DNA of 64,000 nucleotides from Branchiostoma floridae (taxonomy: Eukaryota > Chordata > Leptocardii > Amphioxiformes > Branchiostomatidae): contig NC_049994.1 in NCBI RefSeq assembly GCF_000003815.2, positions 4,630,534 to 4,694,533 of the forward strand. Reading direction: 5' to 3'. The first letter of the stretch is position 1. Every line of letters starts with the position of its first letter. Both the position numbers and the translations under genes were made by a program. Below the pieces are notes generated by a model. The model was not told where the DNA came from, searched no databases, and was given only the letters and a program-made list of their open reading frames with translations. Positions 1,899 to 22,542 of the stretch are shown here, in pieces.

Positions 1899-2627
1899 AA
1901 GGTCTGGGCAGCAGTGTGTTCCTGCGTCCATGATTGGCTTTGGTCAGCAAGTGTCCAGTGGGAATCCACAAACTTTTGGAAGGCCCCCCAACCAGACATC
2001 CCAGCCGCCTACTCATTGTACAAGGCCCCCTAACCCTGTGGAGTATCTGCCTCACATTGCTTCTGCTCAGCACAGATTCCTGCCACCGCCGGGCACAGGG
2101 CCCCTTATGTACCCAGGAAATATACATGCTCAGAGTGGACCAAGGCCCCCAATCCAGCCAGCCTTTTTGCCGCACCCCTATCCGATACCTGCCTACCCTG
2201 TCCAAGTTCTACCGCCAAACATTCGTCCTAACGTCCAAGTATCCGGTGCAAACCAGCAATACCCTGCACAAGTTCCTGGCCCTCCAGTTAGCTTGAACTG
2301 TAGCATTGCGGACTCCCATTCCGCCATGGAGCCGAGATTCCCCACGAAAGGTGTGCGTACGCGCCCCCTCCGACATCGTCCAATGACCTATCAGCCCTTC
2401 GTTCTGCCCATGCACTCAGCACAGCACCCCCCTCCAAGCAGGTACCCCCCTCCCATGCAGCAGTTCCCCCCCACCAGTGCACCACCCCCTGCTTCCTACC
2501 ACCCCCAGAGTTACCCGAACACTCCCCCCTACACTGAGCCTGACTGTGCCAAAGAACAGAGCGGATCCAACTGGGGGGCAGGCTGGGAAGACTGGGAAGT
2601 AACCGAGTTGAAGAAAAGTCTGTACAG
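1899..2627 (+). CDS. Proline-rich exon of the RING ligase gene
   Basis: The acceptor is TTATTCCAG before 1899 and the donor is CAG|GTAAGG after 2627. The exon enters with the third base of a split arginine codon and leaves in phase 2. The product is rich in Pro, Gln, Tyr and Ser, with repeated RPPN and PPP patches and no clear fold, so it is probably a disordered linker. The last residues ([15 protein letters not shown]) are charged and helical and lead into the next exon. The open frame extends upstream through the intron, but the splice site defines the real start. The preceding exon was not found in bases 1-1898. Confidence 0.8.
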
Positions 2628-5600
2628 GTAAGGTGCCGCTTTGTTTGGTACCATCAGCTTTTAAGTTTTATAAAACATACCAATAAGGCCATATTGATTT
2701 GATTGTATGGATGACGTCCCACGTGCATCAATTTTCTGCCATTTCCAAAAGTAAATGAAAGTAGTAACCACACTGTAAATCATACAAAGTAGCTTCAATA
2801 TAAGCTAATATATGCCGTTGATTGCAAAAGCAAATATTGGAAAACGTAAAGGAATATCCCAAGATCATAAAAGGTGAGAAAGAACAAAAATGAAGAATCT
2901 ATTGTTCGGTATACTACAGTCAAACCTGCCCGAGCGACCACCTCTTCTCAGCGACCACCTGGCCATTTCGACCGCTTTTTCTCGGTCCCGATTTATTTTC
3001 CCATTGACGTAAGCATTAAGCGACCTTTTCTCAACGACCACCTGGCCAACGCGACCGCGACCGGCCCAAATTGGGACCCATAACGACCGCATCATTTTCA
3101 AAATTGAGGTTTTCATCGATTTTTGATGATAACTAGCACGATTTTGTGCCAAAATCGGCCAGTTTTCGTCTGATTTTGGGGTTAAATTTACAGTTTACAG
3201 TGTGCCTGTTGTATTTGAGATTAAAGTCCTCGCTTCTTTGCGTGCGTGCAGTGTGCTTGCTTTATGCCATTAAGCACAATGGAAACCATTTATACTTTCC
3301 ATGGGTATGTTTTGAGTCAATACTCTTCTCAGCGACCACCTGTCCAAACCGCTTTTTCCCGGTCCCCCGGGTGGTCGTCTTGGGCAGGTTTGACTGTATA
3401 TTCTTTGTGTCCAGTCATATGTTCAAGCTTCCTCGGACTACTTAGATTTCATAATGAAGGCAACTTCTTTTTTGTCAACCTTTTTTTTTACTCGCACACT
3501 CGCTCGCTTCAGTTTTGGGGTTTTGATTATATAGATGATTGTCATCCATATAATCAAATCAACACGGCCTTATTACTAGTTATGCATCTATTCATTTCCC
3601 ATTATGACAATAGATAATATTGGGTACCAGAAGTACAGAAGTTTGAAATTCTTCTTCCATCTTCAATCAACAGAGAGTTTGCGACCCTGCTGTCCAGCCA
3701 TGGCCCCCTAGGTGAGAGGGATCAGCCTGTGTTAGGACTCTTCATGGGGATGCCTACAGAAGCAAGGCAACTCATCAAGGTAAGTCTAGTCTTCTTTATA
3801 CATTGTGGTCTGGATTAGGAGTGGGTACAAGTACAGAAATTTCAGGTATAGGTCCGCTTCAGGTACAGAGGATCAGGTACAGGTCTGGACCTGAAACTGG
3901 ACCTAACATTATATTGTAAATGGGTGATACCAGGGTTGTAGCCAGCACCCGTCCTTCAGTCCTTTGAAGGAATTCTGCAGCTGGGGACTGAAAAAAAAAT
4001 TGCCCATTCTGTCCTCTGTAATGGACAAAAACTATATGTAAAGTCAGTAAAGATATAAAAAACGTCTTCTTGTGTAATTTTTCACCAAAGCAGATGAACA
4101 GCTTAGTCTACCAGCAAAATCTACACCTCAAAATGCAGGAAATTGGGTTTCAGAGGGTCTAGATTTCAAAAATTTTCAGGGGAGTATGCCCCCGGATCCC
4201 CTTAGGAACGTTATGCCTTCGGCTCGACGTCTCGTTCTTTCTGATTCAAAATCGAGGGGACTGAAAATGATTTCAGGCTGGCTACAACCCTGGGTGATAC
4301 TAAAAAAAACAATGGTCCATTTTGCTACAAATGAATCTGTTTGGTGGAGTATCTGCTACCCACTTGCATTTTAAAATCATGTAATAAACACTTAGTTTGT
4401 AGAAACTTTGTAGAAATGATCCACCCCTAGTCAGAATTCATGAACTAGAAAGTAGTGTTTGTGTGTGTATGTTTGTTTGGATGGACAGTGTAACTGCAGT
4501 AGGTCTGGATGGATCGTCTTCATGTTTGGTGTGTGGGTAGATTTAGATGAGACCTCGAAATGATTGGATTTTGGGCCCCATACTAAATAATAGTGACTTT
4601 TTCAAGTACTGCAGCAGAACGTCCAGTTATGGTATTCTATTATGTTATTGCATTAACACTCCCTTTGCGCTTGAGGCTGTGACCATTGAGCGACTGATAT
4701 TAGATTGCTTAACAAATCGCATACGCTCCATTTTCCAGCTATAAAATAGCAAGGCCCAAACACATCCAATTTTGGACACTCAATGGTTGCGTAGTGATTG
4801 CAGTGTAGTGGAAAGGGCAGTTTGCCCCTACCCTTTGGGGATGGGACATGGAATAAGTCTGCCTTTAAAGTCCTGATATTACATTTTGTATCTTGCATTT
4901 AAGCTATATGCCAGATATTTGCCAGATATTTGTACCAAGCTATATGCCAGATATTTGTACCAAGTTAACAAACTGTTATGACAGAGAAAATCTCAGTTTT
5001 GCATTCATAAAATCAATCACAAGTTGACAAACTTTATGAAATGCTTGCTTTCTACCTTAAGATGTATTGCTATTCTACTCAACAGGAGTGCGGTGGCGTG
5101 AAGGCCTTCCTGCTCCAGAGCCCAAAGTTCAGTGAGGAGGGGGGGAAGATTTGTCTGTCTGATGAACCACGGACACACGTGGCTGTGTCTTCTGCCGACA
5201 GTGGGCAGGGGAGCTGGGAGAGTAACGCAAGTAAGTTGTCTATAAACCACTACAATCTTATTTTCAGAAAAAATGCTCCTAAACCAGTTGAGTTCACAGT
5301 TCACTGAAGAGTTTATCTTCTATTGGTTGTGTCACAGAGAAGACAGACGCTGTGTACAGTTTTTTTATTGGGGAAATCCCACACCACTTTATGACAAGTA
5401 TAATGAACAGTGGATCACAGCTTGATATCCCATCCTAAGGACTGTGACCCTGGATCTGGTATTAGGCACGATATAGACACAGTTTTTCCCGATATCTGCG
5501 AGCTGACAACCTCTCACCGACAGCTTTTTTCAGTGTCTAGATGGAACTGTAATATGGCCATAAAGATATTGGCAGAATTTCTCCCGAAAGGTCCGGAGCA

Positions 5601-8600
5601 TTCGCCTGATAGCTTAGCAGGGGTCCCCGATAGCTTAGCAGGGGTCCCCGATAGCTTAGCAGGGGACCCCGACAGCTTCCGCGTGTGTGTAGATGCGTCC
5701 TGACTTCGGGAGGGCTTATTAGCATATAACGCGGGCTCATTAGGCTATATAGCTGTTTATGACTGCAAGCGCCACGGGTGTCCCACAGCCAAGATCCCTC
5801 CCTCCAGATCCCTCCCTCCAGATCCCTCCTGACATCTCCACAGATATCGGTAAAAACTGTGTCTAGATTGGGCCTTAGAAGCACATATGGATGTCGCAAT
5901 GTGAGATAATAGGAAGATCTATAATGCTGGCCATAGGTGGTCCTAGCTAGGACAGGGCCACCCCACATATGGTTCTGATAAGAGTTCAATAAAGGGACCG
6001 GACCCCAGGCCTGTCCGACACAGTTCTGACCAAGCAAGCAGCGAGTGTGTGTCTCATCGTATTCTCCCCTACATTTGGTGGCTTGCGGTGTGTTGCCGCT
6101 TTCGAGCGGCCGAACCCGTGCTAAAATGTGCCCTTGGCTCGCCCGCTACCATGTTGCCCGACCGGCCCGCTACCATGATAGACTCTCGAACAACTGTGGG
6201 GTTTCATCCGTCCAGACCCACCAACTACTGCAGTATGGGCCCTGACGGTGTCCAGCTACATCCTTTGTTGGCCAGCTCCCTCTGCGAAGCTTCTTCCACC
6301 AGTAGGGCTGTGTACCTAAATACCCGTACATGTACCGTACCTAAAAAATTGTTTAGGTACAGGTCCGGACCTAAACATCTGTGTACCTGTACCTAAACAA
6401 ACTAAATCACTATTAAACACTACTTTTTAAGACTGCTGGACAAGTAAATCCCGAATCAACAATGACAATGGTAATAATCTTGCAGTTAAAACTTAAGAAA
6501 ACTTGCAAAGAAATTGTTTTGAGATTCAAATATGTAATTCCCCATACAAAGATGACAAGAAAGACAGTTAGCTACATGTTTAACGTACATATACTTGGTT
6601 AAACTTTTTTAGGTACAGGTGCAGGTCCAAACCTGTACCTAAACCCGTGTACCTGTACCTGTACCTGAAATTTGTTTAGGTACACAGCCCTATCCACCAG
6701 TGAAACGCCGCTTCTTGCCGCCGACTCCAGTCCATCCGGCGGGGGCTGCCTTCCACCGCCGTCGCCTACCGGCCCCGCTACTGCCGCCCCCGGCCACCCC
6801 ACTAACAGCTCATGCTAAGCCCGCCATCCCAAAATCAAGGAAGGCCAAATGTAGATACAAATGTCAATTGTCAACGGAAATACACTATGACAATGAATTT
6901 TCATGAAAGCTCAAGTTGTGATGTCTATTTGTCAAGAAGTTAAGAGCTAAATTGCTAAATGTAGTCTTTTGCAGTAGGAATATCAATAAGCAATAAGCAG
7001 TGACAAAGTCAACTGTCAACAGCAACTGAGTGTGGTGCCTCAATTACATTGTGTTAAGAGGTATGTAAAGAATCCAGAGGTTTTGACATGCAGTCATAAT
7101 AGAATTTATTGAAGTTCCTGTTGGATGTTTAGTCAATGTTGCATCAGAATTTCGTCCATTATGATATCTTGTTCCACACTACATTTAGGAAACTATAGCC
7201 TGAATATCATCCTTTGTTTGGCAAACATATATACCCTATACATGTATACAATACATTCTGTCCAAGTGCTTTTCTAACACTGTGCATTTGAATAGTCTCC
7301 TCCAGGCCTACGTGTACCAGTGGCATCAACCCCAATGCCATGGAGTTTGTCCCCAGTGAGTGTTCCTTCAGCGAGGCTAGCTCTGACGACGTGTTTGTGG
7401 AAGGTGAAACATATGAATCAGAACAACCAGGTAAAGATTATGAATATCATGATAGCTAATAGTATATGTTTCTAATATGTTGTGATTCAGTCTATGTGTA
7501 TCCCAACTGTCCATCCAAATTAGCAGGCAGATTTTTTATTCTTCTATCGGCCATCTTTTTGTAGTTTTATGTATGTAAAGATATCAAAGTACAATAGTAT
7601 ACATCATATTCTTAACATCTACATGTAAGTTAGAAAGATATTAAAAATGTCTCTCATGGTACTTGTTTAAGATTTGATAGCTTGTAACTAAGTTTTATTA
7701 TTAGGTTTTTACTTAAATTTAAGTGGTGCACCCAAAATTTTTTTGGTTCACCCAATTTCTTAAGCTGGGTGCACCAGTGCACCTAATCCCAAAAATGAAT
7801 TTCGAGCCCTGTAACTATATAATATATATATATTATGTTTGTAAAATGTATTGATGCAATCTATGTGTATCCCAGCTGTCAATCCAAGTTAGAAGGTAGA
7901 TTTTTTATTCTTCTTTTGGCCACCTTGAATTTGTTTTCCTTCAACCCACTTCTAATTGAAGGAAAGATCCTTACAGAAAATCTGTTTTTCTGTCATCTTG
8001 TGCAAATTTGTGTCAGTTTATTTAAATTTTGAGTAATTCATTCATTTACATGTAGTCTGTCAAGGTTAACTGAAGGGTCTTTAATTTTTTGGTCATATGC
8101 AGCAAACTTGGATGATGGAATAATGAATGAAAGAAGACCTGTACATATATAATATTATGCTCTCTAACAAGCTAAGTACAGGTCAAAGTAGGGAAAAGAA
8201 TGCAGTTTCAAGTGATTCTAAGTACAAGTTGCGTTGGCTTAGACCCTTGATTTGACTGAAGTACACATATTTGAGGTGTTGCTTAGTGCTTCTGTGGTCA
8301 CCTATTCCACTGTTTCTCTGATAGCAACTAGTAATCGGACAATTAATTGATGTAATTATATTTGTCAACTAATTAGAACATACCTATCCACCAAAAATTT
8401 TAAATTCAATCCTTGCATGTAATTTCTTCGTCACAGATTCGGAATCTGCATTCAAGGAGATTGCGACAGCTTACGGTATCCGAGTCACTCGCCCTGAAGC
8501 CTACAGCCTCGAAGACTGCAGCCTTGAGGGTGTATCTGGCGGCTCCCTCCCCGAGGCATTGCCAAAAACTGGACCTTGTGTGTTAGCTGGAGCTGGCGAT

Positions 8601-11600
8601 GCAGTACAAAGTGAAGAGATAGAGGGAGCAGAACACACTTTTGAATCATCATGGGCTGTTGTTTGGGATGAACAGAAGATGTCTGAATTTAGCCATTCTA
8701 CAAGCAATGCTGGAAGCTCACATTGGTCTACTGCCTCAGAACAGCTGGACAGCAATTTAACCATGCCTACAGACTATGAGGACAAGGAGGACTTTAAAGG
8801 TACCGCTGCTGGGGAGCTTGTTGGGGTTGAAAACTCTGAACTTGTTGAAGAAATAACTGTTACGGCAAATGACGATGCCAAGTCACAAAACGCAGACTTT
8901 GCCGTACAGTTAGATAACAAAGGGAAACAGGACTCTGTGAAAGGGAGTGACGTAGTAGTAGAAAGTGATCTGGGAGAGTCTTGTATTGTGGAGGATGAGG
9001 TTGGTGAAAGCAGAAATAGTGATGAAAATCATGAAGCAATTGCCTATGATGACACCATTTCAAAGATGTGCAAGGACGCTGACGAAATGTTGCAGGTGTT
9101 TGATAGATCTAGTAGTTTAGGTTATGACTCATACACGTATACAATAGCAAAAGATGAGAACATATCAGATCAGGTCACTTCTAATGGTGCCATCTCTTTC
9201 CCCAAAGCAGAGGGGAATGCTAACATACCTGAAACTTTAACCCAAACAGAGGATGGAGTCAATGACGCAGAGACAACCATCTCTGAGAACACCTTATGTT
9301 CCTGTGAGAATGCGGTTGGCTTCCCCACCTTTCACGAAGAAACGGCCACCGTCGAGCAATCGTTGGACACATTCTTTCATGATATGCAGCTCAACAAAGA
9401 TGGCAGCAATGACGTACAAGAACACGATGAAACTTGCTGTCAAGCAAACTTCAACGAGAACAATAACAATGTAGACAAGCAATTTTCTACCGAGCAAATT
9501 GCAGAATGTGACACCAACGAAAATGTAGAGATGGGGCATGTTGAGAAGTCATTGATCAAAGAAAGGCTGTGCCAAGCGGAGATGACCAACTACAACCTTC
9601 ATCAAGAACTGAACCAGACAAAAGAAGAACTGAGCTCCAACTTCTCGAAGATGAGAGACTCAGAGAAAGCATTGGGATACATGGAAGAGGAATGCAAGAA
9701 TCTTGAGAAACTGATTCAAGAGAAAGAAGAGAGGTATCAGGAGCTTCAGCAGTACACCATCAAAATGGAGGATAGAGTTAAGAAAGTAGAGCAGGACCTT
9801 AGTGAGATCATGGAAGTCAGCCTTACCAGGGCACAAGAAGTGGAGAAGACTGTGCAAGCTGCTTTGGGAGATAAAAAACAGATCCGTCATCTTGAGGAGA
9901 AGCTAACTGATCTTCAAGAGGAGTTAGAGACTGCTAAGAAGGCACTGAAAACTAAGGAATCTACCACAGAAGCTTCTCCCTTGCAGCTTGTAGCTGTTGA
10001 GAAAGCGCTGACAGAAAAACTGCAGCAAACTGAAAAATGGCTGTGGAACTACGGCAAGGAGATCCCAGAAGAGTTGAAAGACGATAAAGAGCAGGTAAAA
10101 GACATTCAGATGACTGTTCAAGCTGCCATCGTGGATCAAAACCAGATCCACCATCTTCAGGAGAAAGTAATGTCTGGGCTACGAGAGGAGTTAGAAACTG
10201 CCAAGAAGGAACTGAAAGCAAAGGTGTATGCTGCAGAAACGGCGCACTTGCAGCTTGCAGCTGTTGAGAAAGAGCTGACAGAGAAACTGCAGCAAAGTGA
10301 AGCACAGCTGCAGAGTTCCCTTCAGCATAACTGCAGTCAGGATGCTCCAGAAGAGTTGAAAAAGGTCCAGGAGCGGGCGACTCAAGCTAAACTCCAGCTC
10401 GCAGCTGTTGAGAAAGAGCTGACAGAAAAGCTACAGCTTACTGAAGCACATCTGCAGCAACACTGCAGCCAGCCTGTCTCAAAAGATGAAAAGCAGATAC
10501 ACCCACTTCAGGAGATACTATTTACTGTCCTTGAAGAGAAGTTAGAAACTGCCAAGGAAGAAGAAATGTACCAATTGCAGCATGCAGCCGTTGTGAAAGA
10601 GTTGATAGAAAAATTGCAGCTGACTCAAGCAGAGCTGCAGAAGTCCCTGCAGCAATTCTGCAGCCAGGATGGTGCAAACGGAAAACAGATCCATCAACTG
10701 CAAGAGGAAGTAGCTGCTCTTCAAACGGAGTTAGAAACTGCAAAGAAAGAAGAACTATCTAGCTTGCAGCATGCAGCAGTTGAGAAAAATCTGATAGAGA
10801 AACTACAGATTGCTCAAGAAAAGCTACAGAAGTCTTTGCAGCAAAACTGTAGCCAGTTTGTCCTGGAAGATCAACAACAGATTCGCCAACTTCAAGAGGT
10901 ATTAACCACTGTCCTTGAAGAGGAATTAGAATCGGCCAAGGATAAAGAAATGAGTCTTAAGAATCTCAAATCTCGTGAAAAAGTGATCATAGAGAAATTG
11001 GAGCTTGCTCAAGCACAGCTGCAGAAGTCCCTGGAGAAGGATGTTGCAGATGAAAAACAGATTCGTCAACTGCAAGAGAGAGTAACTTGCCATCAAAAGA
11101 TGTTAGAAATTTCAAAGATACACCAAATAGAGCAGTCGCAAGCCATAGCTCGTAGGGAAAACTTGATAGAGAAAATAAAGCTTGGTCAAGCACAACTCCA
11201 GAAGTCTTTGCAGCACAACTGTAGCCAGGACATGTCAGATGAAAAGCAGACACTGCAGGAAAAGGTAACTGCTCTTCAAGAGGAGTTAGAGACTGCAAAG
11301 AGGGAGCTGAAAACCAAGGAAGCTGCTGCAGAAAAGGCACAATTGCAGCATGCAGCTGTTGAGAAAGAGCTGACTGACAGACTGCAGAGTACCGAAGCAA
11401 AGCTGCAGTATTCTATGCAGCAGTACTGCAGCAAGGATGTCCCAGAAGATGAACAAGAGATGCATCAGCTACAGGAGAAAGTTACCGCACTTCAAGAGCA
11501 GTTAGAAACTGCCAAGAAGGAAACAAAGGGGTCTGCTACAAAAGTGTCTCCCTTGCAGCTGGAAGCTGTTGAGAAAGAGCTGACGGAAAAGCTGCAGCAT

Positions 11601-14600
11601 GTCGGAGCACAGCTGGAGAAGTCCCTGCAGATGTTAAAAACTGTCAAGAAGGAGCTGAAAACAAAGGAATCTGCTGCAGAGAAGGCACACTTGCAGCATG
11701 CAGCTGTTGAGAAAGAGCTGACAGAGAGACTGCAGCACGCAGAAGCACAGCTGCAAGAGTCCCTGCAGAACAACTGCAGTCAGGACGAGTTGAAAAAGGC
11801 TGAGGAGCGAGCAACTCAAGCAGAACTTAAGCTTGGGAAAATGCTGGGCGAGAAACTGACGTTAGCTGGATCACATCTGCAGCAGAATCTCAGCCAGTGT
11901 GGCCCAGAAGAGCTGAAAGAGTTTATGGAGTTGGCTCAAGTACTTCAACAGCGGCAAAAAGAAAATGAGATGACTCTAATAGCTGGCCTTGAGAAGGAAA
12001 TAGAACTTCAGAAGAAATTGATAACTAATCTTCAACAGGGGTTAGAAACTGCCCAGGAGGAAGGGAAAACAAAGGAAGCTGCTGCAAAAATGACTCGCTT
12101 GCAGCTGGAAGCTGTGGAGAAAGCGCTGACAGAGAAACTGCAGAACACTGAAGCACAGCTGCAGGACTGCCTGCAGCTGAACTGCAGCCGGGATGAGTTG
12201 AAAAAAAGCCAGGAAGAGTTGAAAAAAACTGAGAAGAAAGTAGCTTCTCTTGAAGAGAAGCTAGATACTATCAAGAAGTTACAGAAAACACAGAAATCTG
12301 ATGCAGAAAAGGCACGCTTGCAGCATGCAGCTGTTAAGAAAGAGCTGAAAGAGAAACTGCAGCAAATTCAAGCTCAGCAGCAAAAGGATGCCTCAAAGGA
12401 AAAACAGAAGCTGCAGGAGAAAATAACTGCGCTTCAAGAGGAGTTAGAGACTGCCAAGAAGGAGCTGAAAACAAAGGAGTCTGCTGTAGAAAAGGCTGAC
12501 TTGCAGCTCACAGCTGTTGAAAAAGAGCTGACTGAAAGACTGCAGCACACGGAAGCAGAGCTACAGAAATCCCTGCAGCAGAACTACAATCAGGATGTTG
12601 CAGTTGAAAAACACACGCTCAAGGAAAAAGTAACTGCTCTTCAAGAGGAGTTAGAACATACAAAGAAGGAGCTGGCAGCAAACAAGTCTGCAGCAGAAAA
12701 GGCACACTTGCAGCATACAGCTGTGGAGAAAGAGCTGACTGAGAAACTGGAACATACAGCAACACAGCTGCAAAACCTCAACCAGAAGGTGCCAGAAGAG
12801 TTGAGAAAGGCCCAGGAGAAACTAAAGCTGACTGAAGAACAACTCCAGAAGGCCCTGCAGCAGAGCTTGAGCAGGGATGAGTTGAAAAAGGCCCAGGTGC
12901 GAGCAACTCAAGCTGAACTTCAGCTTGCAACCGTTGAGAAAGAACTGACGGAAAAACTGCGCCTTGCTGAAGCACAGAAAGTCAGTGAGAATGTGGTGGA
13001 AGAGTTGGTGAAGGCCCAGAAGCGGGCGACTCAAGCTGAAATTCAGGTTTGAACGTTATCTTCATGTTATAATTAGCCAGGGTACAATCCGGATAGTAGT
13101 TTGCTCTGACTTTTATTATACACTATATACAGTTGCTTCTCTGCTATTCTGTCTGCGAACTTGGGTCTCTAACGTCTAGAGACCCAAATTTGGACTAGGG
13201 CGCTGATTGGTCCCTACACATTAAGTGAATTAAGGGATGTTTTCAAGCATTGTTCGAACAACACCCAAAACGCCCTCAGTCCACTTGCAGGAGGGCCAGT
13301 TGGAAAGCCTCTTGGAAAGAGCGCTTTAGAACCCATTCCTTCATTTGCTCATTAACTAATGTCACCACCAAAAGGTTTGAATGTATAGTTCCCCAGACAG
13401 GTAGCAGAAGTGAACATAGGAGCAAACTACTACTTGGATGGTATCCAGGCTTTTTGTTTGTTTGCTTTTAACCTTTGTTTCTTCATGAAAGCTCAAATGG
13501 GCCTGCAGGCTCAGTCCCTTGAGTGGTTGCTTAGGCCTGGGTCACATTTCCAAGGGATGTTTTAAGAAACGAAAATTAAATCATATGCCAAGAAAAATAC
13601 ACGAATTATGCCCTTGAATCTTATTTTGACATTTTGTGCATTTTGATGTCTTTTATATAATTTTTTTTGCTCCCGATAGTTGCCCGGTCGGGCCCCTTTT
13701 TTTAAATGTGACCTAAGGGTTAGGCCAGGTCTTACTGTGTAATTAAATTTTGTACTGGACATGCAATTCAGCCTCTGGCTGCCAGGTGTCTAAAACAAAT
13801 CATTCGTCGTCGTTCACCAGGTTTTGAACTCCACGTTCCGCTGGTGCCGCTCTGAGCTGGAGGAACAGTACAGGGAGGGGGAGAGGATGTACAGGTTCTT
13901 CACGGAGAGGTGCATGCTGGGAGAACGAGAGCTGGAGAAGTTCAGCTGTGATTGGCAGGACTACACCAGCGACATCCTCAAGCAGATCACTCAGGTTCAG
14001 GTGTGTGCCTTACATGGAAAACAGTGCCATAACATCATGCATAGCACTAAACATAACACCAGGAATAGGTACTGTACAGGTCTGGACCTGTGCCTGAACT
14101 ATTTTGGTATGGTGTTGTGTTTAATGATGACAGAAACAGAAATAAAAGTTGACAGGATGTTTATGTAGACTTTGTCTAAATTTATGTATCTTATGAAGAG
14201 AACCCATGCTTTCATGTGGATCTTAAATAAAAATGGTGTTCATTTCTAACAACCATACAATTTTTCAGGGAAAATCTTTGTGCTAGGATTTATTATAAAT
14301 GTTTTAAACAGTTGAAAAGTTATTTAGCATAAGTTTATTCAGGCACAGTAACAGTACATGGATGTCCCAGTATTTTGGACCTAATACATGGTTTTCTCTG
14401 TAATACAGTGGCCAGTAATGATTATAAAGAGATACATAGGTACTGTACACATTGGCATATATAGGCCAAGGTTCACAAAAATTTTAAAGAATGTTCCAAG
14501 ACAATCACTTAATATTCAAGGCCTGTATATTGTATTGCCAGTTTGTTAGACTTAAAGATGTCATGTCAAAATATGTGCAAAATTAAATCCTTACGTGCCA

Positions 14601-17600
14601 ATTCTCTTGTTGTTGAATGATAAAAGTTCCACCATCAGTGGTTGACTGTTTCGTGTTGACCCCTCCTGCAGCTGCTGTACTCCACCAATGTCCAGAGGCT
14701 TCAGTCAGGCCAGCCGCTGTCCAGCCTTCCCCAGCTCAGCCTGGTCAGGCCACAGATGCCACGACTGCCTGACCTTACTGCAAATATGGTGAGTCCATAT
14801 ACGTGGGTGATGACTTGTTTCCGACAAAAATGGGATAGGGAATGTCCTGAGCAGCCATTGTAACCCCTGCTTCACCTATTGGGTCAGTTAGTCCTCACTC
14901 ATAGCGAGCAATTGAGCTGGAGCAAAAGTGATAGATGGACACATGAACTACAATGAAGTGGATGTAGTGAACTACAATTAAAGAAGGCACCAAACAAACT
15001 TGACATATGTCACATCAGAGGCTTGATATCTTAATCTGAAGCCAGACAGGATGCAAAGCAGAACTCGTATTATCTGTAGCATCTTTGAAGCAGATAAACT
15101 TAGTATAGTAGTAGAAGAGTTGTCAGTACAGCCATCTTTAACCCATGACTAATCAAAGGATAAAATTTTCTCTTTCATCTCAGCTGAGCCCACCTGACAG
15201 CTACAAGCTCCATCTTGTCCCACTCTGCCCTATCGCAAACCAGTCAGTCTCCAGGCCAACCAGCCCTCCACTGCCCATGCCTACTGGCAACGTAGACTGG
15301 TCTTCCTGCATCCCTCCACCAAAACCCTTGCAGGAGAAAAACTCCACTCCTGATGGCACCAGTCCCCAAGAAGCAGGGAATGAAAACCATCCTCTAAAAT
15401 CTGACCAACACGTCAGCTTACCTTCAAACTCTAAAGGCTCATCAACTGAAAACAGCAACTCTTCAACTCAGGAGAACTCAGCCTTACAGGGCAAGAGAAG
15501 TCCTGAAAATGACGTTCAACCGCCGCCGAAAGCCAGAGTTTCGGAGGACAAGAAGCGTCTTCGTTTGCCGTCTGGGATGTCGAAAGCTGCCGCTATCCCT
15601 AGCGGTGCAGTACTAGTCTCGAAGAGGAGGAGGCGCACAGAGTCTGGAAGCAGCTGTAGTTCGAATGTGACTGAGGCAAGTGTGGCATCTGTGGCTGGCT
15701 CCTCTGGTCCACCTGGACTTGTGAATCTGCAGGTTAGAGTGATTCTTTTGTTGTATGATTTTAGCTTTGTTCCAACACAAAGGACACACAGACCATGTAC
15801 AAGTATTTTCAGTAGATCATGACAACCAGGCTTTTAGCTAGCAATGCGTACAGCCGTACAATGTACGGCCTTCGCTAAAAAAATCGCAAAATGTACGCCC
15901 TGTTTTTTGGATGTACGCCTTTGGTACGCCCTTATTTTCCCGGTAACTTGAGATATTACTTTTGTTGCAGTCTTTATTTTTAAAATATTGATAAATGGAT
16001 GTTGTTTGTTGAGAAAATTTCGCTTAATTTGCCCTTGGAACACATCTTTTCTGCTATATATTTTCAATGAATTAAATGTTTGTACACATTTTTCTGTACT
16101 GTGTAAAGTTAAAACGCTGATGTTACAGGCTACAAGTAACTTTTCAGTGCATTTATTTTCAGCTATGTTCTTAACAGTAGATACACAAAAGAAATATAAG
16201 ATGTACCTGGCAGTCCTGGCTACACTTTCTCCTCTGTTGGTTTGCAGATTTTCTTGTAGACTTCTTTAGCTTGCTGTTGTTATATATGTAACAGTCAAGT
16301 TTCACCTTTAGCAGTAAGGTTAATTTACTCTCCCTGATTGTATGTATTAACTCATGAAACATTATATGTAAGGGAATCAGTGTTATATTACTTGAAAATT
16401 ACCTCATGTATTCTTTAAGCCATATCCACCTCAAATCAAAAAACACATACCGAGCCATTCTCAGGACAAAAGTAGTGTTGCAGCAAAGACAAAAATTTGG
16501 CTATATTCTACTTCAAAATGCAGGAAATAGCATTTCAGAGGCTTTAAATTTCAAAATTTTCCGGGGGAGGATACCCCCCGACCCCCCTACAATGCTCGCG
16601 CCTTCGGCGCTCGTCGCGCGGCAGATGTACACCCTAAAAAAATTCCTAGCTAAAAGCCTGATGACAACCTTCATCAGTTGGCTGATTCACTGCGGCGACT
16701 GTACCGAAACTGGATGCGTGATGATGTCAGGAGTGAATCAAAGGTGGTTGAAAGACTGAGCCTACTGCCGTCACAGTCCAGAGAGGGTTGATTTTCCCTG
16801 ATGTACACTGCCTCCTTCACGCCCTTCCATCAACCTTCTTTGAACCATGATGGTGGTAAATGCTGTCTTCCTGCCACCTTTGATTCACCCCTGATGTCAT
16901 TCCAGGAAACGTTTCTGGGAAATCAGTGCAGTCAATCAGACCTTTGATGTAGGTCGGCTTGGTGTGAGTTTCCTTTAATGTTTTTTAATGCTACCAATAT
17001 AGATGAGCTTTGATTCAAATATTTGTATGATTCTGGGTTTTATGATGGTGCTTCTTATGAATTTTGTCATTTTATTAATTTTTGTACATGTTTTCCACAA
17101 GGAACCAATGATGCCCCATACCACTTCACCTGCCAAATCTGTGAGCCAATCACCTGCAGAAAAATCTCAGCTTGCTCCAAAGTCTGGTGTGGAACTGCCT
17201 AAGCCCAGTACAGGGAATGAAGACTCCCTCCATCCAGAAACTGGCCAATCAGCTTCAAACCAAAGTCAAGACAGCCAATCAACCAACATAGTGCATGTGG
17301 CCGGCCTTGCCCAATCAGGACCAGGTTATCAGAATGTAACCGGCCTTACCCAATCAGCACAAGGTTATCAGAATGCAACCGGCCTTGCCCAATCAGCACG
17401 AGGTTACCAGGTTATCAGAATGTTACTGGCCTTGCCCAATCAGCCAGCTACATGGCACCACATCCAATGGGCTTGATGCCACCAGGATATGCAGGACAGC
17501 AAGCCTTTAGTGTTCCAAGGCAGGTGCCTCTTGGAGCTGGACTGCAGTTCCAGCCTGACATCCACAAGTTCTCCTCTACACCTCCAGGTGTCTTCGAGTT

Positions 17601-20600
17601 TGCTGGTCACCATCTAACTCCACCAAATGTCTTACCGAGGGATCAGGGAGCACACTCCCAGGTGCAACCAGGTGCTAAGGACACAGCTGAAGCACCTTCT
17701 TCACTACAACCAAACAAAGAGCAGCTGAAAGCATCTGCTAGCATCTCAACGAAAACGTCGGACAATCAGAAGACAGCCTCCTTTACCCAAGCTGTCAGGC
17801 CTAAATCAACTATCCCATCTGACAAGGCCAGGGCACTGGTGCAACAGGCACTCACAGAGGATGCACTGGACACCCAAAACAAGTACCAGGCCTTGGATAC
17901 TGGAATAGAGGACGCCACAGAAGAGGTTGATGAAGCCGCACCAGCAGCCAAAGGGGTTGCTGAACATGGCGGCTCCGATGAAACGCGGAGGAAAGCGGCG
18001 AGTCCCGTCTCACAACTGTCAAATGTCCAGCAGCTCAGCAAGTTCCCTGAGATAGAGGACAACAACAATAGCAACAATGAAGATGAGTGGCAGATGCAGG
18101 TGAGGGTTTCTCTTCATACTGTAGCTCAGACAATACATTGTACCTATAATCTGTTTGTTTTTTTAGGGATATAGTCAGTTGTGAGGCTGTGCATTTGTTG
18201 GTGTAATGGTTATGGTGTTTGACCCAGAATCCAGAGGACCTGGGGTTCACATCCCCTGACATGCTGCCAGTGTTGTGCCCTCGGGAAAGGCACATAGCAT
18301 GACCTTCCCTGCTGCACTCAGGTGTAAAACTGTGCTAAAACTTGGCTAGGAAGGGTACATGAAAAAGACAGTGTAAGGAGAGACACAACCCATTGCCCCA
18401 TTGCACTAATCTCCAAGCAAACCTGTCAATGGCAAGGCAGTATCCAAAGGGCCAACCGGTATCCAACAGACCACCAAAGGCCTGTTGGATACTACCCCTG
18501 TACCACTGATTGATCTGCTTGGACATAACTGCCCTCAAAAGGACTACCTTTACCCTTTTTTCTTTTAGTTTGAAGATGCATACAAAAGTATTTTTCAGAG
18601 TTGGTTTTGATTAGGGCTGTGTACCTAAACAAATTTCAGGTACAGGTACAGGTACAGGTACACGGGTTTAGGTACAGGTCCGGACCTGCATTTGTACCTA
18701 AAAAATTTAAACTATGTATATGTAAGTTAAACATGTAGCTAACAATAATTTCTAGTGATAAATTGTAATTTTTGTATGGGGAATTACACATTTGAATCTA
18801 AAAACAATTTCTTTTCAAGTTTTCTTCAGTTTCAACTGCAAAATTATCACCATTGTCATCGTTGATACGGGATTTACTTGTCCAGCAGTCTTAAAAAGTA
18901 GTGTTTAATAGTGATTTAGTTTGTTTAGGTACAGGTACAGGTACACATTAGGTCCGGACCTGTACCTGAACAATTTTTTAGGTATGGTACAGGTACGGGT
19001 ATTTAGGTACACAGCCCTAGTTTTGATGCAATATAAGGCAAATACTGGAGAAAAGAAAGACCTTCCCAATGTAAGATTGGGATCTTTCTGTTATTGCCTT
19101 GTCTTTGACTGTTTCTATTTGTTTGCAGCTGAGTAAGAAGAAGAGAAAAGTGCTTGCAGCAGTGAAGGAGTCGGAGGCTCCACAGACGAGCGGCAAAGCT
19201 GCCGCCAAGCAGAAACTACTGGACAGACTTCAGGCAGACCTCCCAGGCTACTCAAGGTTAGGAGGAACCAATACACATTATTGTATACATGACAGTCATA
19301 TAGGGTGTATGACAGTATGAGGGATGTCCTTACGGCTCAAATGGTAGCAGACTCACAGTTGAGCTCCTGGTTCCAATTAGTTGGTTCATGTAACTGGAAG
19401 ACCCCCGTTCAATCCTAGGAAGGACATCTTGGTTGGGGTTGCACCCATTATTCGAAGGGGATGTAAAATGGGGGTCCCGTGTTTGGGGAGCTACTGTAGT
19501 CTCTACCAGACTCCGTCCGTGGGTCGCTGTTCCCTAGCCAGCTATACTTCTCAGCTCTGGCTGGCTTACTGGCAGTGACATATGGAGTCTGATAGAGTCT
19601 GAGACTACTACCTCAAGCACATTGAAGGGGAAGGGCTAGCAACCCGTCCCTGTAATAAGATATCTTTCTACAACAACAGCAAGGAAACTTGCTGTCCGTA
19701 CAGTCACTAGCCAGCACAAGGGTACAAGCAATCAAAGAGGGTGTAGGAATTTATTACACTATCATACATGTGTATGTTGAATGTATGTTCTTGTATAGAT
19801 ATACCTGACATATAAATGTGTGTACCTATTGTTAATGTGTGTCCGTGTAAATGTACCCATAGGGAACAGTTGCTGAGCGCGGCTGCTGCAGTACGGCGTG
19901 CGAGGCATGGCACCCTCAGCAGCCTGCCGTTCTGCATCATCAGCGGAATGGTGAAGGCAGAGCTGTACAAAAGTCAGCTGCCTGCCCAGGTGGAAACATC
20001 AAATCAGCCCAGCTCACAAACCCCACCTAGCAGCCAGCTCCAAACTGCACCAAGCAACCAACCTGGGACTCGAGCCAACAACCTGGTCCAAGCCACACCG
20101 AGCAACCAACCTGGGAGTCCAGCCAGTGACCAAGCTGCTAAAGCCCCACTGAGCACAGAGGCTCAGTGCACAGGCACTACCCAGTCCTTTGAAGCTGGTA
20201 GTAGTGCCAACCAGGTTATTGAAGTGAGTATTTTTCCTGTTTTATAACAAATTTGTATAATATATGAAAATGTGGTAAAAAACTAATCTTACTGCATGTT
20301 ATTCACACCCCAAGAAGCAGTGAAGCTTTCCTCCATTTGATTCCATTATTATTTTAAATGCATTTAAGTTTGCATTGATTTAATTTTGCCATGAGAAAAA
20401 AAAATGTGTTCACAGTGGTTTGGAAATTGCAATAGCACTATAGACACATACTGGTACAGTAATGGGAATGACAGCAAGTCTAAAACCACCTAGTAGGGAC
20501 TCAGCAAGGGTGCTATGTAAAGATAGACAGAACAATTCCCTCTATCATCATTATGTTGTACAATGTATAGTGCATTTAACATGTAGAACTTAGACAAGAC

Positions 20601-22542
20601 AAGCCGAGAGAGTCACAGACAAGACAGTATGCGGGCAGAAGATAGAAAACAAATTCACTGTAGTAGTGAAGTGTAGTAGTAAAACCGCCTTGAACACATA
20701 CATGCATTTACAGTATATTATTACTACACCTGTCCAGCAGTAAAGAACAGCTATGGAGAAATTTTAATGTATTAAGCTACTGTATTTTCAGGCGACTGAA
20801 GGAAACCTGCAGCTTGCCAGGAGCCTGCTTCAGTTAAAGTACAAGACGGAGATGTGCTCTAACTTCCGCAGCAGCGGCACCTGTCGCTTTGGCGACAAGT
20901 GTCTGTACGCGCACGGGGAATGGGAGCTGCGCCGCACTCCCAAGCTGACACCCTGTCCAGCTATGCAGCAGAAGGTGGGTAAAATAGGAAGTTAAAAGGT
21001 GTGTCTGCATGGTTTTACAGTCTACACACTCTTCCACTTGAAACATTATGTCCAAATTCTGTGGCGCCAGCTTCCTGGGATAACAGTTAGGTCGGGACAT
21101 GGCTGGAAATGAGTTGCATCATTCGAGGGTTGGATAGAGCCGGTGGCTCTGTCTGCGCATGAATGAGCTTGAACACTACCCACTGTACCTCAAAATGTGT
21201 GGCATTGTGTGGCGCAATTGACAAGGTGTTTGTCCCAGACCCCAGAGTTAAACAGGCTCGAAACCGCTGATTTGTCCCGACGTTGTGCCCTTAGGAAAGG
21301 CACTTTACACGACTTTCCTCACATCACTCAGATGAAAATGAGTGGCTAGCTTTGGCTAGGACTATCCTTTGGATAGGACGTTAAATGGTGGTCCATTGTT
21401 TGAGTAGAGCCACACCATGAGCACATTAAAGAACCCATCGCACTTATCGAAAAGAGCAGGGGATCTTCCTGGTGCGATTGGTGGAACCCTACAGTCCTAT
21501 GGCCGCACCTGGGGCAATTACTGTAGTATTGAGGTCACTTTAGTGGCGCCAAATGGCAGACCCTTGCAATTTACTAGTGGCACCAAGATACATGAAGATT
21601 GAATCAAAACTGTATCCTAATCTACAGGGACACTGCCCACATGGTGACAGCTGTATCTTTGCACATTCCAAGAATGATCTGAAAGCACCTGCCAGGACAC
21701 CTGAGCAGGTGAAACCTGTCGCAGCTGTGAGGAGGACGTCCCCGACAGCTCGCATGCGTCTGGTGGACCTGAAGAAGAAGAAAGAGCAGACAGAGGACAG
21801 ACTTGACAAAAAGAGGCCTCTCTGGCAAACTGTAGAGGTAGAGATATGCAGTCTTCCTTCTTTCTCTTGTAAAACCTTTCTTGTCTGAATACTGAAAATT
21901 GCATGGTGTAATATAGGTTTCAGAATTTTTTAAGGATGTATAAGCTTTATCTTGCTGATTTTTTTTCAACTTTGTAGATGCTGGTAACATACTAAAAGTT
22001 CTGAACTTTTAACAGTTATATGCATTTTGCTCTAGGCTCTTTCAGAGCTCGAGGCCTCTATAAGCATTTTATATTATATAATGCTCAGAAATAGCATCAA
22101 AACTTTTGTAGATTTGGATAAAGTACTAACTTAGTCATTTGGTATCTGTAAGAGCTAAATATGCCATTTTTAAGGGAACTAAAACCATAGTACATGTACA
22201 CAGAGAGAAAAGAAACCCAGTTATAACAATGTGATATACATGTACTAGTATTTTTCTTAGTGGGAAATGATGGTAGTACAAAAAAACAAAGTTACTGTAT
22301 GACAATATGATATATTTTTCTTGGTACAGACAAAGCAACGGTCACAGTCCCTAGAGGCCGACGTCTGTGCCATCTGTGTGGACGACCTATATGACCTGAT
22401 GGGGTCGTGTGTCCGCACGCTGGACTGCGGGCATCGCTTCCACGATTCCTGCGTCTCGCGCTGGCTGCTGAAGGAAGAGCGGACGTGCCCCTGCTGTAGG
22501 CAGCTCGCCTTGCTTCCCGAAGAGTTCCCGCGCTTGAAATAG
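1899..22542 (+). CDS. TTC3/DZIP3-like RING-H2 E3 ubiquitin ligase with PAM2 and tandem CCCH fingers (3' part of gene)
   Basis: Exons: 1899-2627, 3674-3779, 5086-5230, 7296-7430, 8437-13046, 13821-14000, 14672-14788, 15184-15732, 17102-18099, 19129-19256, 19863-20223, 20792-20974, 21628-21837, 22330-22542. Every junction has GT-AG ends and matching phase, giving about 2,885 residues once the 8-nt duplication at 17402-17417 is discounted. The N-terminus lies upstream of the window because exon 1899 begins inside a codon. Domain order in window residues: proline-rich 1-240, TTC3/DZIP3-like segment about 244-327, PAM2 337-347, repeated coiled coil about 700-1909, basic and low-complexity segments, CCCH fingers about 2706-2758, RING-H2 2828-2871, and a tail LLPEEFP as I recall from DZIP3. 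Expected role (family knowledge): E2-dependent ubiquitin transfer. RNA association is inferred from PAM2 and the CCCH pair. Introns hold many transposon relics. Family assignment is from memory of motifs, not from a search. Confidence 0.82.
2917..3396. mobile_element. Tc1/mariner-type MITE, copy 1
   Basis: Terminal inverted repeats CAGTCAAACCTGCC and GGCAGGTTTGACTG are flanked by TA on both sides (2915-2916 and 3397-3398), the Tc1/mariner insertion signature. The interior repeats GCGACCACCT words. A near-identical copy in the same orientation is at 33490-33962, inside ATXN7L3. Non-coding. Confidence 0.88.
3674..5230 (+). CDS. TTC3/DZIP3-like segment, exons 3674-3779 and 5086-5230
   Basis: The first exon joins the previous one in phase (AG + A), reading [20 protein letters not shown] and then [12 protein letters not shown]. 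The second continues in phase 0 with [20 protein letters not shown]. The pattern of an alternating hydrophobic helix, then GG[11 protein letters not shown], resembles a conserved segment I associate with the TTC3/DZIP3 ligase family. The donors are strong (AAG|GTAAGT and CAA|GTAAGT). The second exon ends in phase 1. The assignment is from memory and could be wrong in detail, but the coding call is firm. Confidence 0.72.
3931..4292. mobile_element. hAT-type MITE, family CAGGGTTGTAGCCAGC
   Basis: Terminal repeats CAGGGTTGTAGCCAGC and GCTGGCTACAACCCTG, with a perfect 8-bp target-site duplication GGTGATAC at 3923-3930 and 4293-4300, as in hAT transposition. 362 bp, non-coding. The right sub-terminal sequence (CTTCGGCTCGACGTCTCG) resembles the 15827-16660 element, suggesting related families. 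Confidence 0.9.
4904..4963. repeat. Short tandem repeat in intron
   Basis: The word AAGCTATATGCCAGATATTTG occurs twice and GCCAGATATTTG three times between 4900 and 4963, with TACCAAG spacers. It looks like local slippage duplication. Confidence 0.8.
5465..5874. mobile_element. PIF/Harbinger-like MITE with internal minisatellites
   Basis: The ends GGCACGATATAGACACAG and CTGTGTCTAGATTGGGCC are inverted repeats of about 37 bp, flanked by TTA on both sides (5462-5464 and 5875-5877). The 3-bp TTA duplication and GG(G/C)C start fit PIF/Harbinger. Inside are three 21-bp direct repeats (GATAGCTTAGCAGGGGTCCCC, about 5610-5672) and three 12-bp CCTCCAGATCCC-type repeats (about 5800-5830). Confidence 0.82.
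5893..6850 (+). mobile_element. Possible LTR-retrotransposon 5' fragment, split by a hAT element
   Basis: A TGT...ACA segment (about 5893-6071) contains AATAAA and ends CCCCTACA, followed by TTTGGTGGC, which resembles an LTR end followed by a primer-binding site. An open frame downstream (6049 onward) stays open across the hAT insertion at 6303-6692 up to a stop near 6811, as expected of a gag-like remnant. No second LTR, protease or polymerase is present. Tentative. Confidence 0.35.
6303..6692. mobile_element. hAT-type MITE, family TAGGGCTGTGTACCTAAA, copy 1
   Basis: Terminal inverted repeats TAGGGCTGTGTACCTAAA, with a perfect 8-bp duplication TCCACCAG at 6295-6302 and 6693-6700. Sub-terminal regions are rich in GGTACAGGT and GGTCCGGACC words in both orientations. 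390 bp, non-coding. The second copy at 18612-19019 lies in the opposite orientation. Fragments near 3840-3900 and 14065-14105 share GGTACAGGTCTGGACCTG. Confidence 0.93.
7296..7430 (+). CDS. Exon encoding a PAM2 (PABP-interacting) motif
   Basis: The only acceptor that restores frame with the upstream phase-1 exon is GAATAG before 7296. AG sites at 7305 and 7320 give the wrong phase. The exon encodes [14 protein letters not shown] at 7319-7360, matching the PAM2 consensus (L/I)NPNAxxFxP that binds the MLLE domain of cytoplasmic poly(A)-binding protein. The key residues are present: the hydrophobic position before Asn, Asn-Pro-x-Ala, Phe and Pro. An acidic stretch follows ([10 protein letters not shown]). 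It ends in phase 1 at CAG|GTAAAG. Confidence 0.8.
7555..7812. mobile_element. Truncated copy of the 1040-1403 element
   Basis: From TTTATGTATGTAAAGATATCAA to ATTTCGAGCCCTG it matches the right two thirds of the element at 1040-1403, including the GTGGTGCACCCAAAA and GTGCACCAGTGCACCTAATC words. The left terminal repeat is missing. Confidence 0.8.
8437..13046 (+). CDS. Giant 4.6-kb coiled-coil repeat exon
   Basis: One exon of 4,610 nt, entered in phase 1 and left in phase 0 at CAG|GTTTGA. The first 380 or so residues are acidic and serine-rich. From about 9840 the product is an almost unbroken heptad coiled coil built from roughly 16-17 degenerate repeats of about 60-90 residues. The repeat core is [20 protein letters not shown], followed by NCSQD, a short spacer, then [20 protein letters not shown]. 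Cys in NCSQ recurs at the same place in many copies. The length suggests an extended oligomerisation rod. Copies differ in length and sequence, so the array is old or under relaxed constraint. Confidence 0.9.
13075..13451. mobile_element. MITE with AGCCAGG/CCAGGCT ends
   Basis: AGCCAGGGTACAATCCGGAT at 13075 and its inverted partner ending CCAGGCT at 13451 share GTAGTAGTTTGCTC on the inner side. It lies 28 bp downstream of the giant exon's splice donor. A similar-ended element is at 29814-30235. The target-site duplication is unclear here. Confidence 0.68.
13533..13717. mobile_element. Small MITE, GGCCTGGGTCACATTT family
   Basis: Ends GCCTGGGTCACATTTCC and AAATGTGACCTAAG are inverted. TTAGG lies outside the left end and CTAAGG at the right. 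A related element at 53570-53766 has ends GGCCTACGTCACATTTTC. Non-coding. Confidence 0.6.
13821..15732 (+). CDS. Exons 13821-14000, 14672-14788 and 15184-15732 of the RING ligase gene
   Basis: All three are phase 0. The first encodes a helical, Trp/Arg/Glu-rich segment that continues the rod ([20 protein letters not shown]). The second gives a Leu/Pro/Gln-rich linker ([17 protein letters not shown]). The third encodes a Ser/Pro-rich disordered stretch with basic patches ([19 protein letters not shown]) that may add nuclear-localisation signals. Acceptors and donors are CACCAG/CAG|GTGTGT, CTGCAG/ATG|GTGAGT and TCTCAG/CAG|GTTAGA. No recognised domain. Confidence 0.8.
15827..16660. mobile_element. 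hAT-type element, family CAGGCTTTTAGCTAG, copy 1 (834 bp)
   Basis: Terminal repeats CAGGCTTTTAGCTAG and CTAGCTAAAAGCCTG, with a perfect 8-bp duplication ATGACAAC at 15819-15826 and 16661-16668. The sub-terminal region has GTACGGC/GTACGCC repeats. A shorter relative with its own duplication is at 35498-35838. No transposase frame. Confidence 0.92.
17102..18099 (+). CDS. Low-complexity exon with 39-bp repeats and an 8-bp frame-breaking duplication
   Basis: Entered in phase 0 after CCACAAG and left in phase 0 at CAG|GTGAGG. From 17324 it carries about three 39-bp units encoding GYQNxTGLxQSAx. In the last unit GGTTACCA (17402-17409) is followed by GGTTATCA (17410-17417). These 8 extra bases move the repeat into another frame, and the first frame stops at 17476. 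The downstream frame to 18099 is open and joins the later exons, so both halves are coding. It is a recent allele, an assembly or sequencing error, or is removed by an unusual splice. An intron 17411-17499 would restore frame but has a weak pyrimidine tract. Confidence 0.72.
18189..18540 (+). mobile_element. tRNA-derived SINE
   Basis: A perfect pol III A box TGGTGTAATGG at 18199-18209 and a near-perfect B box GTTCACATC at 18245-18253 sit about 40 bp apart, as in a tRNA head. They are followed by a body with GTTGTGCCCTCGGGAAAGGCAC. The body is shared with 21203-21600 (GTTGTGCCCTTAGGAAAGGCAC) and, inverted, with 30530-30665. Confidence 0.75.
18612..19019. mobile_element. hAT-type MITE, family TAGGGCTGTGTACCTAAA, copy 2
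   Basis: The same ends as 6303-6692 but the element is inverted. The 8-bp duplication GTTTTGAT is perfect at 18604-18611 and 19020-19027. 408 bp, non-coding, about 110 bp upstream of the NLS exon. Confidence 0.93.
19129..20223 (+). CDS. Exons 19129-19256 (NLS) and 19863-20223 of the RING ligase gene
   Basis: The first exon opens [13 protein letters not shown], which contains the monopartite nuclear-localisation core KKKRKV, and then an Ala/Lys-rich helix. It ends in phase 2 (AG) and the next exon supplies G, giving Arg. The second exon has a conserved-looking start ([20 protein letters not shown], then [14 protein letters not shown]), then a Ser/Gln/Pro linker with three degenerate copies of xxPSNQPG. 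It ends in phase 0 at GAA|GTGAGT. Confidence 0.8.
19326..19670 (+). mobile_element. tRNA-derived SINE, second type
   Basis: A perfect B box GTTCAATCC lies at about 19409-19417 after CCCCC. Upstream, GGCTCAAATGGTAGCAG is compatible with a decayed A box. The body includes GGTCCCGTGTTTGGGGAGC and ends with poly-A-like ACAACAACAGCAAGGAAA near 19685. The boundaries are approximate. Confidence 0.55.
20792..21837 (+). CDS. Tandem C-X8-C-X5-C-X3-H zinc fingers (exons 20792-20974 and 21628-21837)
   Basis: The first finger is at 20855-20914: [20 protein letters not shown], preceded by YKTEM, close to the (R/K)YKTEL lead-in of tristetraprolin-type RNA-binding fingers. The second is split by the intron. 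Its first Cys (20954-20956, in TPCPAMQQK) lies in the upstream exon, and [13 protein letters not shown] begins the downstream exon at 21628. After phase-0 splicing the spacing is again exactly 8-5-3, with 13 residues between fingers. A Lys/Glu-rich helix follows. By family knowledge such pairs bind AU-rich single-stranded RNA. The target here is unknown. Confidence 0.9.
21203..21600 (+). mobile_element. tRNA-derived SINE in the intron between the two CCCH exons
   Basis: A-box match TGGCGCAATTG followed by a decayed B box GCTCGAAAC, then the same body as 18189-18540. It occupies most of the intron that splits the second CCCH finger and ends close to the acceptor at 21627. Confidence 0.65.
22330..22542 (+). 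CDS. Terminal exon: C-terminal RING-H2 finger
   Basis: The acceptor is GGTACAG before 22330 and the stop is TAG at 22540-22542. The zinc ligands follow C3H2C3 order: Cys-x2-Cys (CAIC), 16 residues, Cys-x-His (CGH), His, Cys (HDSC), then Cys-x2-Cys (CPCC), spanning 22366-22497. Ile in CAIC, the Trp of SRW and the following Pro in CPCC are the usual E2-contact positions, so the finger looks catalytically competent. It ends [10 protein letters not shown], close to what I recall of the DZIP3 C-terminus. Confidence 0.93.
   Translation, partial: TKQRSQSLEADVCAICVDDLYDLMGSCVRTLDCGHRFHDSCVSRWLLKEERTCPCCRQLALLPEEFPRLK

Follow-up and report, generated by a model that had tools for sequence, protein, structure and literature searches.

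The window, a stretch of 64,000 nucleotides of Branchiostoma floridae DNA, carries on a single strand, in this order, the coding parts of a winged helix, a PAM2 motif, a predicted rod, helical segments, a pair of CCCH fingers and a RING-H2 domain. Judged from its sequence, the gene encodes an E3 ligase of the TTC3 family, and we hold with moderate confidence that it is a diverged TTC3 paralogue whose product would be a PABP-docked, RNA-contacting RING ligase acting on translation.

The gene was modelled from the sequence alone as a chain of 14 exons on the + strand, running from position 1899 to a stop codon at 22542 (Table 1). GT donors and AG acceptors were present at all 13 introns, and the acceptor before exon 1 was likewise canonical. 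Exon 1 opens mid-codon, which places the start of the gene upstream of the window. The limits given in the original prediction held, 1899 being an acceptor and 22542 the stop codon, while its statement that the exons join in phase was borne out at 12 of the 13 junctions, the sole exception being the junction after exon 9, whose entry frame differs from its exit frame. The exon chain itself had to be corrected: the exons at 3674-3779 and 5086-5230 had been overlooked, and with both in place the PAM2 exon begins at 7296 rather than at 7306, in phase 1. Joining exon 1 directly to a PAM2 exon that begins at 7306 also keeps the phase, but exons 2 and 3 yield the winged helix, and this candidate was rejected.

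Table 1. Exons of the modelled TTC3-family gene, with their predicted content and the evidence for each.
Exon	Position	Strand	Content	Evidence and remarks
1	1899..2627	+	Proline-rich; 3′ end encodes the first matched winged-helix residues	Splice sites; phase 2 in and out
2	3674..3779	+	Winged-helix middle	PF24812, 19.3 bits (ORF alone), 61.1 bits spliced with exons 1 and 3
3	5086..5230	+	Winged-helix end	PF24812 positions 79-106, 14.3 bits (read-through scan)
4	7296..7430	+	PAM2 motif	PF07145, 18.6 bits (cut-off 20); regular-expression control; phase
5	8437..13046	+	Acidic segment, then predicted rod of ~1,140 residues with repeated units	Open over 4,610 nt
6	13821..14000	+	Rod end and start of PF24525-like segment	PF24525 match; BLAST to C15 gene
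7	14672..14788	+	End of PF24525-like segment	PF24525 match; BLAST to C15 gene
8	15184..15732	+	Proline/serine-rich linker	Splice sites and phase
9	17102..18099	+	Low-complexity linker, 39-nt repeats	Alternative: two exons, 17102-17186 and 17588-18099
10	19129..19256	+	Basic stretch and first half of TTC3 C-terminal helical domain	PF24905
11	19863..20223	+	Second half of C-terminal helical domain, linker	PF24905; BLAST to C15 gene, E 5e-8
12	20792..20974	+	CCCH finger 1 and first Cys of finger 2	PF00642; 183 nt, phase 0-0
13	21628..21837	+	Remainder of CCCH finger 2, lysine-rich stretch	210 nt, phase 0-0
14	22330..22542	+	RING-H2, tail, stop codon	PF13639, 42.0 bits

Membership of the TTC3 family was indicated by the winged helix. 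One ORF scored 19.3 bits with the Pfam family wHTH_TTC3 (PF24812), and a scan reading through introns found the consecutive piece of the profile at 14.3 bits. When exons 1-3 were spliced, the match covered profile positions 35-106 of 123 and reached 61.1 bits (E 2.1e-16, cut-off 27), far exceeding either piece alone, which supports the splicing of these exons. The gene combines this winged helix with two other traits of the family, a PAM2 motif following the winged helix and a C-terminal RING-H2 domain. The winged helix had no match among PDB sequences at E 10, and a search of NCBIfam with two proteins returned no families.

We also searched the genome (513,431,437 bases in 431 contigs, with the window on contig C16) for PF24812 at E 0.001, and obtained one match of 90 bits on another contig, C15; the window copy was not reported because it is cut into exons. 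Likewise, the helical domain and the TTC3/DZIP3 domain (PF19179, E 0.001) passed the cut-off on C15 only, in searches that exon-split copies can escape. The C15 locus comprises two ORFs of 1,343 and 457 residues (5171924-5177521; L015 and L016) with TPRs, the TTC3/DZIP3 domain (117.7 bits), the winged helix (86.0 bits), PF24525 (27.3 and 49.8 bits), TTC3_9th (88.8 bits) and a RING (47.8 bits), and its predicted product is a canonical TTC3. In coding layout it consists mostly of these two long ORFs, as against at least 14 exons in our model of the C16 copy. Neither a zf-CCCH family at E 0.1 nor a CCCH pattern was found in the C15 gene, and a single open frame holds both its helical domain and its RING, with no sign of CCCH exons in between. 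Shortly after its winged helix, at the place that PAM2 occupies in the window gene, it carries the PAM2-like sequence LNPCAPTFTP, detected by regular expression only and not reported by the Pfam PAM2 profile at E 0.1.

In blastp comparisons of the two genes, the winged helix scored 44.7 bits, the end of PF24525 30.0, TTC3_9th 36.2 and the RING 57.8, scores that none of 100 shuffles reached in any case, while the CCCH pair gave 15.8 bits, which was reached by 52 of 100 shuffles. The winged helix together with PAM2 scored 45.4 bits, in an alignment that ended before PAM2 with composition correction and ran through it when uncorrected. The two RINGs were 47% identical over 57 residues. The modules common to both copies are collinear, and include the winged helix, PAM2 or the PAM2-like motif, a coiled coil, helical segments resembling PF24525 and PF24905, and a C-terminal RING-H2 with an ALLP(E/D)EFPxL tail. 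The original proposal of one gene that is kin to TTC3 and DZIP3 is supported. Beyond the C15 TTC3, the window gene has the CCCH pair before the RING, the predicted rod of ~1,140 residues and a proline-rich segment before the winged helix, whereas the TPRs and the TTC3/DZIP3 domain, both present in the C15 TTC3, were not detected in it. No family appeared at E 0.1 in ~19 kb upstream on the + strand, where split exons could escape, or at E 1 in positions 1-1901 of the window. Because the C15 ORFs, compared by tblastn with 54 kb surrounding the window gene, recovered only the RING (E 2e-9) and one chance match (E 4.1), the missing upstream TPRs say little, and in the window copy these domains may be absent, further off or in split exons.

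The PAM2 motif (PF07145) scored 18.6 bits (E 0.0014), below the cut-off of 20, and 13.6-18.1 bits in longer contexts. A strict regular expression gave a single match over all six frames of the window, and none in 200 order-1 random windows; a loose one matched twice, with one match spanning a stop codon, and was also found in 7 of the 200 random windows. Among PDB sequences, the Paip2 PAM2 peptide (1jgn) was the sole one at E 10 or better, with E 0.39. The profile searches suggested with the original prediction came out clearly for zf-CCCH (46.7 bits) and RING-H2 (42.0 bits), with PAM2 remaining under its threshold. The accompanying suggestion that vertebrate TTC3 lacks PAM2 was not supported: human TTC3 is included in an alignment of PAM2 motifs in PMC7356810 and is named in a list of PAM2 proteins in PMC12898128, and the C15 TTC3 has the PAM2-like motif described above. 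PAM2 binds the MLLE domain of PABP, as stated in PMC7356810.

Exon 5 showed the composition and periodicity of the predicted rod. From about residue 400, E, K, Q, L, R and A accounted for 61-76% of every 100 residues. In 7 of 10 windows along the exon the best hydrophobic period fell at 3.54-3.62 (two of the other three falling within the first 350 residues), and there were 12 instances of a repeat unit; no Pfam family matched the exon at E 1. PF24525 matched over the exon 6-7 junction at 20.1 bits, below its cut-off of 27 and at profile positions 195-248 of 250 only, and PF24905 (TTC3_9th) matched over the exon 10-11 junction at 23.8 bits, again below a cut-off of 27. The helical domain returned only two unrelated chains from the PDB (E 0.73 and 0.85). 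Basic runs were observed in exon 10 (LSKKKRKV, 19129-19152) and exon 8 (SKRRRRTE, 15184-15732), which we take to resemble nuclear localisation signals and which would then be at odds with a purely cytoplasmic role.

For the CCCH pair, PF00642 matched the spliced C-terminal piece in two stretches at 46.7 bits (E 2.7e-12), compared with 33.3 bits in the exon 12 ORF alone, and finger 2 was complete only once exon 12 was spliced to exon 13. Both fingers are of the form C-x8-C-x5-C-x3-H, and all zinc ligands are intact in both of them and in the RING. The best PDB match of the C-terminal piece was butyrate response factor 2 (1rgo, E 9.3e-13), presumably TIS11d, which covers both fingers, followed by an unnamed C3H1 protein (4.8e-12) and tristetraprolin (6.9e-12). 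A whole-genome search with the same piece gave, among the 11 matches listed, five of the gene's own exons, one ZFP36-type gene, the C15 RING and four other RING regions.

Among the matches listed, that ZFP36-type gene (C1, L008) was the best for the CCCH pair beyond the gene itself; it has YKTEL ahead of both fingers and a linker of 18 residues. In the window gene, finger 1 is led by KYKTEM and finger 2 by TPKLTP, the linker has 13 residues, and finger 2 contains CPHGDSC where the C1 gene has CPYGPRC. The pair thus shares with the ZFP36/TTP family the YKTE lead on finger 1 and the repeated C-x8-C-x5-C-x3-H spacing, for which the original designation as TTP-type is apt, and departs from that family, and from the designation, in its linker (13 instead of 18) and in the absence of a YKTEL lead on finger 2. 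TTP is not known to have a RING. Finger 1 could well bind as finger 1 of TTP does, to judge by its sequence. Because of the differing finger 2 lead and linker, however, the proposed binding of AU-rich RNA is weakly supported, and a UAUUUAUU-like site as the target of the pair is not supported. Exons 12 and 13, which stand just before the RING exon, amount to 393 nt. Each is in phase 0-0, so that such a cassette could enter by shuffling, and splicing could omit it while the frame is kept; the CCCH exons may be missing from some transcripts. As to origin, the pair was probably either inserted as a phase 0-0 two-exon cassette between the helical domain and the RING, or lost from the canonical copy.

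RING-H2 (PF13639) was matched at 42.0 bits in exon 14 alone and at 37.4 bits in the spliced piece, and the nearest PDB sequence was that of RNF13. An AlphaFold prediction for exon 14 (70 residues), run without an alignment, had a mean pLDDT of 56.5, contained no RING fold and was uninformative. Two scans of viral contigs yielded, in the first, one locus matching the RING only (L001, 42% identity) and, in the second, none.

Several other features were observed in the window. A downstream neighbour of the TTC3 paralogue is a gene for the SAGA subunit Sgf11, with an exon at 31256-31480 on the + strand (PF08209, 67.1 bits) that we take to be of the ATXN7L3 type. On the − strand, 51115-51384 matched DUF4587 (45.2 bits), a family that presumably includes human C21orf58. 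Human TTC3 is on chromosome 21, like C21orf58, and an old linkage is possible. A large inverted repeat occupies 25305-27958. Its arms are 497 nt long at 99%, and two further pairs inside it measure 146 and 113 nt at 96%; a mobile element or a palindrome of recent origin may account for it. An ORF at 41455-41664 on the − strand had no Pfam match at E 0.1; we take it to resemble the end of a retroelement reverse transcriptase.

Published passages on TTC3 in mouse neurons place it mainly on 40S subunits and describe its co-precipitation with eIF4E, eIF4G, PABP and RACK1; where Ltn1 is knocked out, it reduces initiation for some of the genes and increases the ubiquitylation of RPS2, and it made no contact with those arrested nascent chains that were tested (PMC10041068, PMC11880988), and total translation was not much changed in the same knockout study (PMC10041068). 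By its PAM2 motif the paralogue would dock on PABP, while the rod would form dimers and give reach. The CCCH pair would touch RNA directly, placing the ligase on chosen messages, and the RING would transfer ubiquitin from an E2 onto members of the bound translation complex, either 40S proteins or initiation factors. The outcome would be damped translation of the bound messages, comparable to the action of TTC3 in Ltn1-knockout mouse neurons. The originally proposed function, an mRNP-docked RING ligase, is plausible.

Against this reading stand the scores of PAM2, PF24525 and PF24905, all below the Pfam cut-offs, and exon 9, which in its modelled form interrupts the frame ahead of the CCCH and RING exons. 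At 17402 this exon contains an extra 8 nt (GGTTACCA before GGTTATCA), an out-of-register repeat with 7 of 8 bases alike, and this repeat causes the frameshift: the entry frame ends at a stop codon at 17474-17476, and the repeat peptide read in it is continued in the other frame, a sign that exon 9 was one exon. The shift is due either to an assembly error or to a broken allele, or it lies in a spliced-out intron. Were it real, the gene would be a degenerating or recently broken TTC3 copy with a product ending before the CCCH pair and the RING. We regard such a decay as improbable, since the zinc ligands of both fingers and of the RING are all intact, the exons downstream of exon 9 join in phase, and tandem repeats are places where assemblies err. 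In addition, a candidate intron of 401 nt at 17187-17587 (donor 7.1, acceptor 10.5 by a simple matrix) would bypass the shift, leaving 199 residues without a stop.

The locus might also produce two isoform classes, or hold two genes, with PAM2 and the CCCH pair seldom in one protein owing to an early end or to skipping of the CCCH exons. The phase 0-0 of exons 12 and 13 would allow this, as would the weakest splice sites among those scored (the 7296 acceptor being left out), namely the acceptors of exons 11 (1.7) and 9 (3.3) and the donor of exon 5 (3.6). However, the CCCH exons lie on the same strand as the flanking TTC3-like parts and in phase with them, and those flanks, the helical domain and the RING, form one open frame in the C15 copy; we give such a division little credence. 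A less remote alternative, although still an unlikely one, is that the CCCH pair is not sequence-specific for RNA and serves protein contacts or substrate recruitment in an otherwise ordinary TTC3 action. The missing YKTEL, the CPHGDSC of finger 2 and the short linker agree with this, whereas the closeness of finger 1 (KYKTEMC...) to its ZFP36-type counterpart and the extent of the best PDB match, 1rgo, across both fingers argue for RNA contact. The reading we prefer is still that of a diverged TTC3 paralogue docked on PABP and touching RNA.

Parts of this architecture are already known, namely PAM2 in TTC3, and PAM2 with CCCH and RING in MKRN1 and Unkempt. Two features of the predicted gene appear unusual: the CCCH pair, encoded by two phase 0-0 exons just ahead of the RING, and the predicted rod of ~1,140 residues. 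No CCCH-bearing TTC3 was found in the open-licence literature among the matches listed, and one may well already be annotated in some genome database. TTC3 has been tied to translation control and neuronal defects in passages of PMC10041068, and its PAM2 is little mentioned in the open-licence literature. A CCCH-bearing paralogue suggests that mRNA contact is an old part of the TTC3 role, and the presence of two copies in one animal, one with fingers and one without, constitutes a natural experiment. More speculatively, and as a tentative possibility only, exon shuffling after a TTC3 duplication might have given one copy the phase 0-0 CCCH cassette, set between helical domain and RING, and the giant rod, so that a translation-arrest ligase docked on PABP would come to pick its messages by RNA sequence, a second and independent origin of the Makorin/Unkempt type on a TTC3 chassis.

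DZIP3 is the K-rich RNA-binding ligase, and by Pfam name the TTC3/DZIP3 domain is common to it and TTC3. Ubiquitin ligases that bind RNA have been named as a class, one that includes DZIP3 (hRUL138), and one class of them is defined by K-rich regions and not by CCCH fingers, according to passages of PMC5707401. With Makorin and Unkempt, the window gene looks like a case of convergence on one set of parts. None of the Makorin families was among the 25 Pfam matches listed for the spliced pieces. MKRN1 is a PAM2, CCCH and RING protein in which PAM2 spans residues 161-193 and residue 307 belongs to the RING, and thus has a spacing and size other than those of the window gene; it belongs to a separate family, and the MKRN1 passages of PMC6805484 name no TTC3 domains or rod. 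Unkempt, as portrayed in passages of PMC11009413, resembles the window gene in having CCCH fingers, a RING, a PAM2-like motif and a dimer-making coiled coil, but it differs in that it has two CCCH clusters, works with CCR4-NOT and is described there in terms that name no TTC3 domains.
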